Shown here: in pieces, positions 37,733 to 37,940 of the stretch
How positions within the stretch are numbered: position 1 is the stretch's first letter
How the letters are laid out: each line of letters opens with the position of its first letter
Origin: Trichormus sp. M33_DOE_039
GTDB lineage: Bacteria > Cyanobacteriota > Cyanobacteriia > Cyanobacteriales > Nostocaceae
Direction: 5' to 3'
DNA length: 64,000 nt
Assembly: GCA_015296085.1 (NCBI GenBank)
Contig: DVDT01000006.1
Location: 1-64,000 of the forward strand
Translations under genes and position numbers: made by a program
Notes under the pieces: model-generated
Databases searched by the model: none
Seen by the model: only the letters and a program-made list of their open reading frames with translations
What the model was told of the DNA's origin: nothing

Positions 37733-37759
37733 AAGTTACAGAGATATTTAACTAGTCAA
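37733..37759 (-). promoter_or_regulatory. Candidate minus-strand promoter: -35 TTGACT (37759-37754) with weak -10 (TAACTT 37738-37733, or CTTAAT)
   Basis: Minus strand TTGACT-AGTTAAATATCTCTG-TAACTT-AAT; upstream of the 68-aa gene and the DUF1016/cas10d genes. Spacing 15 or 18 nt depending on the -10 chosen. Confidence 0.4.
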
Positions 37760-37773
37760 ATACGTCAGCACTT
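37755..37773 (+). promoter_or_regulatory. Candidate target site of the mini-CRISPR guide (GTC PAM-like + AAATACGTCAGCACTT)
   Basis: 14/16 identity with the first 16 nt of the spacer-like segment at 37868, 9-nt perfect seed, GTC immediately 5'. Confidence 0.5.
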
Positions 37774-37830
37774 TAAACACTCATCCTTTATCTGCTAGTC
37801 TTAGGATCAGATGGAGACTCACCTCAACCA

Positions 37831-37940
37831 AAGGTTGAGATGACTAATCCCTATCAGGGATTGAAACAAATACGTCTGAACTTACTGGCGTAAGCTTTTT
37901 CTCCGTCACATTAACTAAAATCCCTATCAGGGATTGAAAC
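37831..37940 (+). CRISPR. Mini-CRISPR: two degenerate repeats flanking one spacer-like segment, opposite strand to the cas genes
   Basis: psi-repeat 1 core GACTAATCCCTATCAGGGATTGAAAC (37842-37867); spacer-like AAATACGTCTGAACTTACTGGCGTAAGC... from 37868; psi-repeat 2 AACTAAAATCCCTATCAGGGATTGAAAC (37913-37940). Versus canonical AACTAATCCCTATTAGGGATTGAAAC; the 5' 11 nt of the repeat are degenerate. Confidence 0.75.

Follow-up and report, generated by a model that had tools for sequence, protein, structure and literature searches.

The stretch analysed here, hereafter the window, comprises 64,000 nucleotides of Trichormus sp. M33_DOE_039 (GCA_015296085.1, contig DVDT01000006.1, positions 1-64,000; genome of 7.0 Mb). 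It holds a complete type I-D CRISPR locus whose genes all lie on the minus strand, in the order cas3, a small winged helix-turn-helix (wHTH) gene, DUF1016, cas10d, csc2, csc1, a 2-oxoglutarate (2OG) oxygenase gene, cas6, cas4, cas1 and cas2, followed by an array of 21 repeats. The subject of this analysis is a mini-array on the plus strand, located between the wHTH gene and the stop codon of cas3, in which two degenerate repeats (psiR1 and psiR2) flank a single guide. An earlier note on this DNA had taken it for a mini-CRISPR of the CreR/CreA kind, aimed at a cas-side promoter through a GTN protospacer adjacent motif (PAM). Both degenerate repeats were recovered at the positions that it gave, as were the spacer-like segment and the match of 14/16.

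The repeats score 43.7 bits (psiR2) and 37.5 bits (psiR1) against the Rfam model CRISPR-DR5, whose gathering cut-off is 40, and the distance from the end of psiR1 (37867) to the end of psiR2 (37940) is 73 nt, within the period of the main array (70-77). The AATCCCTATCAGGGATTGAAAC form of the repeat was found only at the mini-array across the 7.0 Mb genome, and the guide begins AAATACGTCTGAACTT. Among the related loci with two repeats, the handle ATTGAAA is kept in psiR1 in 44/44 cases and in psiR2 in 19/44, a difference that fits their presumed roles, since psiR1 would give the 5' handle and psiR2 would serve 3' processing only. The psi-repeats appear to follow the native repeat type of the host genome: where they are of the CCCG...CGGGACTGAAAC type (G192, G347, G299, G151), that repeat end is multicopy and mostly located in regular arrays, while in the AATCCC-type genomes checked the CCCG-type repeat end is present zero or one times. 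An ordinary immune array was rejected as an explanation, as the repeats are degenerate and the guide is conserved between genera. A viral origin of the spacer is argued against by the absence, among viral contigs, of any exact match to the first 20 nt of the guide.

The guide matches two sites that lie back to back. Target 1, on the plus strand, is matched over 37755-37773 (14/16, guide positions 1-9 perfect) and is preceded by GTC at 37755-37757, in agreement with the earlier note; when the whole genome was searched for GTNAAATANGTCNGNACTT with at most one mismatch, it was the sole match (0.024 exact matches expected by chance). Its protospacer (37758-37793) abuts the putative -10 of the mini-array at 37796-37801. 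Target 2, on the minus strand, consists of GTT followed by AAATATCTCTGTAACTTAATGGCT, with a 9/10 seed, and the match is GTT|AAATATCTCTGTAACTT. The single target claimed earlier stands at 37755, but it is one of two, and one of them lies over the mini-array's own promoter. Shuffled guides gave a seed of at least 9/10 next to a GTN within 450 bp in 0.02% of trials. The site at 37303-37331, which resembles the guide at 24/29 positions, was rejected as a better target: it lacks a GTN, has seed mismatches and forms part of another conserved element (element 2, see below).

The relationship between guide and target was studied in 101 type I-D loci, made up of the window, 60 loci from the same family (retrieved by a cas3 anchor) and 40 from elsewhere in the class (other families and orders); related loci among them are not independent of one another. 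The target score was the best GTN-flanked match over guide positions 1-5 and 7-11 within 450 bp upstream. A mini-array is present in 81/101 loci, nearly always at the 3' end of cas3; this total counts all forms (two-repeat, one-repeat, displaced and variant) and includes the window. The two-repeat form occurs in 44 same-family loci including the window, with the second repeat mostly about 5 nt from the end of cas3, and a few further same-family loci have the one-repeat form. Outside the family, 30 of the 40 loci carry the mini-array at the cas3 end (25 two-repeat, 5 one-repeat). Three loci first scored as free of it contained a displaced or variant copy on reading.

A GTN-flanked seed match of at least 9/10 was found in 39/44 same-family loci (20/24 distinct guides) and in 29/30 of the others, whereas swapped guides of different types reached this level in 0.07% and 0.36% of cases. 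When the best match was chosen regardless of the PAM, it was preceded by GT for 21/24 distinct guides, against a background of 4.9%. The mismatches between guide and target concentrate at positions 6, 12 and 18, with hardly any at 1-3, 5 and 7-9, the pattern that a type I effector would give. GTN is the published PAM of type I-D, in whose effector every sixth base is flipped out (PMC10212523), and the same seed rule (positions 1-5 and 7-11) applies to CreA (PMC8501985). The pairs thus combine the PAM and the tolerance at every sixth position that function as a type I-D crRNA (CRISPR RNA) requires. The earlier note had named covariation in homologous loci beforehand as one point on which its proposal could fail; seed, target and PAM turned out to be co-conserved across many guide sequences, as expected of a CreR/CreA-like mini-CRISPR with a GTN PAM and a cas-side promoter as target. 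Guide and target co-evolve, and this comparison is strong evidence that the mini-array RNAs would guide the I-D effector to GTN-flanked sites.

Table 1 Positions of the mini-array, its targets and the surrounding type I-D features in the window
Feature	Positions	Strand	Remarks
psiR1, degenerate I-D repeat	37842..37867	+	Source of the 5' handle ATTGAAAC
Guide (psiS)	37868..37903	+	Seed match to neighbouring GTN-flanked targets, as in related loci
psiR2, degenerate repeat	37905..37940	+	Ends at the cas3 stop; position conserved
Span closed by predicted helix P1 (37810-37817 with 37900-37907)	37810..37907	+	Leader hairpin, psiR1 and guide lie inside it
Putative mini-array promoter, extended -10 TGC-TAGTCT	37793..37801	+	Inferred; extended -10 enriched in relatives
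Target 1, PAM GTC (37755-37757) and protospacer	37755..37793	+	Ends against the -10 of the mini-array promoter
Target 2, PAM GTT (37752-37750) and protospacer	37714..37752	-	Overlaps TTGCAA, the -35-like hexamer of the divergent promoter
Putative promoter of wHTH, divergent, TTGCAA-17-TAGTTT	37698..37726	-	Inferred by sequence comparison
Small gene of the wHTH family (68 aa), paired with the guide	37405..37611	-	
Element 2, guide-like core	37194..37349	- (tentative)	Conserved, apparently structured
cas3 helicase	37942..40170	-	3' end abuts the mini-array; start codon uncertain
DUF1016/YhcG-type nuclease gene	36142..37161	-	Pfam; PADLOC PDC-S02; co-directional
cas10d, large subunit	32848..36123	-	By position and conservation with csc2/csc1; no Pfam match
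csc2 and csc1	31078..32801	-	Csc2 by Pfam; csc1 by position and conservation
Main I-D CRISPR array, 21 repeats	25671..27178	-	

In nearly all loci the minus-strand target lies over or beside the region of a divergent promoter. Promoter positions were placed by eye from sequence comparison. The minus-strand TTGACT that the earlier note had read as a -35 is not conserved in relatives; the shared signal lies further on, at 37726-37698 (TTGCAA-17-TAGTTT), and putative equivalents in other families are TTGACA-17-TAGCGT (L046, L051), CTGACA-18-TATACT (L127) and ATGACA-17-TAGAAT (L113). On the other strand, an extended -10 (TGNTANNNT) precedes psiR1 in most loci, and in cassettes of the wHTH type the second target covers this promoter of the mini-array itself. 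An RNA toxin of the CreTA kind between target and psiR1 was considered and rejected, the interval being filled by the putative mini-array promoter. The text of a published study of Nodularia transcription start sites makes no mention of CRISPR. In the predicted fold of the mini-array transcript, the 5' leader pairs with the far end of the guide (z -5.8). Across 78 loci, a leader-guide helix score of at least 18 was reached by 62% of true and 14% of swapped pairs, and close relatives show one compensatory pair.

Beyond the divergent promoter lies a gene of about 60-110 codons that belongs to one of three families. The wHTH family (58-72 aa) is matched by the PADLOC HTH model in 25/25 members and, going by a winged-helix model, looks like an ordinary DNA binder of that fold; a sequence search of the PDB with the wHTH protein gave no significant match. 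The QL family (62-74 aa) carries the motif QLxL(x)F twice and ends invariably in AA, features that we take to resemble sliding-clamp-binding motifs and ClpXP degrons, respectively; its members (L035, L038, L050, L055, L076, L098, L121-L123 and others) are uncharacterised, with relatives only under cyanobacterial or unnamed entries. The third family is coiled-coil-like (81-109 aa). No KilA-N domain was found in any of the three. The first three bases of the guide go with the family: AAA or GAA with wHTH in 30/30 classified loci, AC., ATG, CTG or AAT with coiled-coil in 23/23, and TTC, TTT or TGT with QL in 17/18. A small gene is present in 74/81 loci with a mini-array against 0/20 loci without one, and in the apparent exceptions to this co-occurrence (L094, L097, L124) the cassette is there in a displaced or variant form. 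Within the genus of the window the type switches between wHTH (the window), QL (L041) and coiled-coil (L033, L073, L074). Since the guide predicts the family of the small gene and types are exchanged within one genus, guide, target and small gene travel as one cassette; as loci without it keep their cas genes, it is an add-on to the operon. Distant wHTH homologues also occur near repeat arrays in L133 and L138, where an I-D cas3 was not detected, and the small gene may serve systems other than I-D.

The genes between the cassette and cas10d (DUF1016, DUF433/DUF5615, and pairs of nucleotidyltransferase and HepT) nearly all point the same way, and in L112 and L116 no gap between target and cas10d exceeds 17 bp. 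Downstream of the cassette, L112, L115, L116 and L117 have DUF433- or wHTH-nucleotidyltransferase fusions followed by HepT, and a wHTH-DUF433 fusion is also found; the nucleotidyltransferase/HepT and wHTH-DUF433 fusions are toxin-antitoxin-like genes lodged in I-D operons. A CRISPR-associated PADLOC model recognises the 2OG-Fe(II) oxygenase gene of the window (30342-30974), which sits within the cas operon, flanked by csc1 and cas6, and recurs in many related loci. Element 2 spans about 155 nt and separates wHTH from the gene that follows in wHTH cassettes, among them those of L045, L046, L051, L056, L103, L104, L109 and L115. It resembles the handle and distal guide of the same cassette. Read on the minus strand, its closing stem has about 4 broken pairs per 100 cells against about 10 on the plus strand, and in the former orientation the element would be complementary to guide positions 4-29. 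An Rfam search with it gave no match. One idea is that it acts as a decoy, or as a leader sensing the guide RNA. In QL-type cassettes (e.g. L035, L041, L050) the interval from the target to the QL gene holds a further guide-like copy (CTCCGTCTTTGTACTTGAAGGCTTACGCC), with no GTN PAM.

Taken together, the small gene, the target-bearing divergent promoter and the mini-CRISPR, placed between cas3 and cas10d, probably form a repression cassette in which RNA guides the type I-D effector. The mini-array would be transcribed on the plus strand and Cas6d would cut from it one crRNA-like RNA with an intact 5' handle. Loaded with this RNA, the I-D Cascade would bind at the GTN-flanked targets by forming an R-loop of about 16 bp; as this length would not suffice for interference, transcription would only be blocked. 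From its position, the recurring target suggests repression of the divergent promoter; the small gene would be silenced and, by read-through, the accessory and cas10d genes as well, while in wHTH-type cassettes the effector would also cover the mini-array's own promoter. Such a cassette would report the availability of free, functional effector: loss of the effector, its titration by crRNAs or its inhibition by an anti-CRISPR would release both the small protein and the operon from repression. We lean slightly, in what is close to an even choice, towards the small protein as the putative essential payload, with the cas genes co-regulated. Of the earlier proposal that the RNA represses its own operon, the choice of target is supported: the guide is aimed at a cas-side promoter and the operon layout is compatible with repression of the cas genes, but the overlapped promoter belongs to the small gene, and cas control would depend on read-through.

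Several observations weigh against the repression cassette. A generic promoter scan of the window called neither the mini-array promoter nor the divergent one, and no single offset of the minus-strand -10 from the PAM could be found for all families, as it differs from one to another. Three of the 44 same-family guides (L039, L067, L082) are without a target. Lastly, between wHTH and DUF1016 the window has a gap of about 240 bp, occupied by element 2, and read-through into cas10d is therefore not assured.

The cassette could be read as CreR proper, in which the guide autorepresses the cas operon, keeping cost and self-targeting low, and the small gene simply opens this operon, perhaps as a regulator. 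The window does contain a degenerate mini-CRISPR beside the cas genes, distinct from the main array, with a seed and PAM match to a putative cas-side promoter; in nearly all loci the small gene points the same way as cas10d, with the short gaps of L112 and L116; and CreR (Liu et al. 2023, doi 10.1016/j.chom.2023.08.005, as described in PMC12737573 and PMC13131331), named for I-B, I-E and V-A, likewise has limited complementarity to cas promoters. Yet loci free of the cassette keep the cas operon and never the small gene, the guide tracks the small-gene family and not the cas genes, and the 240-bp gap parts wHTH from the remaining operon of the window. This reading is a serious possibility, if somewhat short of probable. 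Alternatively, the guide RNA could be an antitoxin in a CrePA-like guard, the small protein (wHTH, QL or coiled-coil) arresting growth once the I-D effector is disabled, with the result that cells which are infected or have lost the effector would no longer grow. The obligate linkage of small gene and mini-array speaks for it, as do the three unrelated families, each with its own guide seed, the exchange of cassettes inside one genus, and the motifs of the QL proteins, with their likeness to clamp-binding motifs and degrons. There is also a precedent with a protein toxin: CrePA (Shu et al. 2025, doi 10.1038/s41589-024-01693-3, as described in PMC12737573) consists of a CRISPR-repressed toxin, typically KilA-N acting on FtsZ, and a crRNA-like antitoxin. 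Nevertheless, the wHTH protein resembles an ordinary winged-helix DNA binder and the cassette heads co-directional cas genes, which would fit regulation equally well; we regard the guard as quite conceivable without holding it to be the likelier outcome.

It could also be that the wHTH protein uses the repeated AAATANGTC/GAATANGTC motifs as its operators and that the guide resembles them by descent, the effector being uninvolved. Both wHTH-type cassettes do hold two copies of the motif, inverted or in tandem, but QL and coiled-coil cassettes pair guides and targets of quite different sequence, and the adjoining GTN and the mismatches at 6, 12 and 18 are requirements of the effector, not of an HTH protein, which makes this explanation improbable. 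Still less credible, to the point that we hardly entertain it, is that the mini-array is what decay has left of a normal CRISPR array and happens to match DNA close by: this would account for the degenerate repeats and the antisense location, but conservation across orders covers position, guide, target, PAM and fold, the viral contigs lack the match mentioned above and the swapped-guide control contradicts it.

The mini-array is an I-D variant of the known CreR/CrePA kind rather than a separate category. It shares with CreR the degenerate mini-CRISPR beside cas genes, the limited complementarity to a cas-side promoter and the proposed use of the effector as repressor; it differs in its I-D subtype, in a target that faces a small gene strictly linked to the guide and changing with it and, in wHTH types, in the second target on the mini-array's own promoter, along with the conserved leader-distal guide helix. 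As in CrePA, a crRNA-like RNA would guide the effector to the putative promoter of an adjacent protein gene, but the small proteins are not KilA-N and they head the cas10d-side operon. The psiR-psiS-psiR layout of the guide gene, the seed at 1-5 and 7-11, the PAM in a neighbouring promoter and the repeat degeneration are found in CreTA too (PMC8501985, PMC9458426), where, unlike here, psiR1 is the more diverged repeat. The WYL regulator Sll7009 of the Synechocystis I-D system (PMC10212523) is likewise a winged-helix DNA binder tied to an I-D locus, but the wHTH protein of the window has only 68 aa and no WYL domain, and control is proposed to pass through the guide RNA. This review of I-D systems mentions no mini-array; the original CreR description may include I-D cases.

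The many natural matched guide-target pairs lend themselves to seed and PAM swaps. Tentatively, and with less than even confidence, cyanobacterial I-D systems may carry an exchangeable guard cassette in which one of three or more unrelated small proteins is kept silent by the guided effector; the QL type might halt replication once an anti-CRISPR has disabled the effector. If the repression cassette is real, the placement of the small CRISPR-linked HTH gene would be explained, and two more small-protein families, whose functions can be tested, would be added. CreR/CrePA-type logic would then extend to the I/III-hybrid subtype I-D, and most of the cyanobacterial I-D loci examined would hold an RNA-guided switch sensing the state of their own effector.
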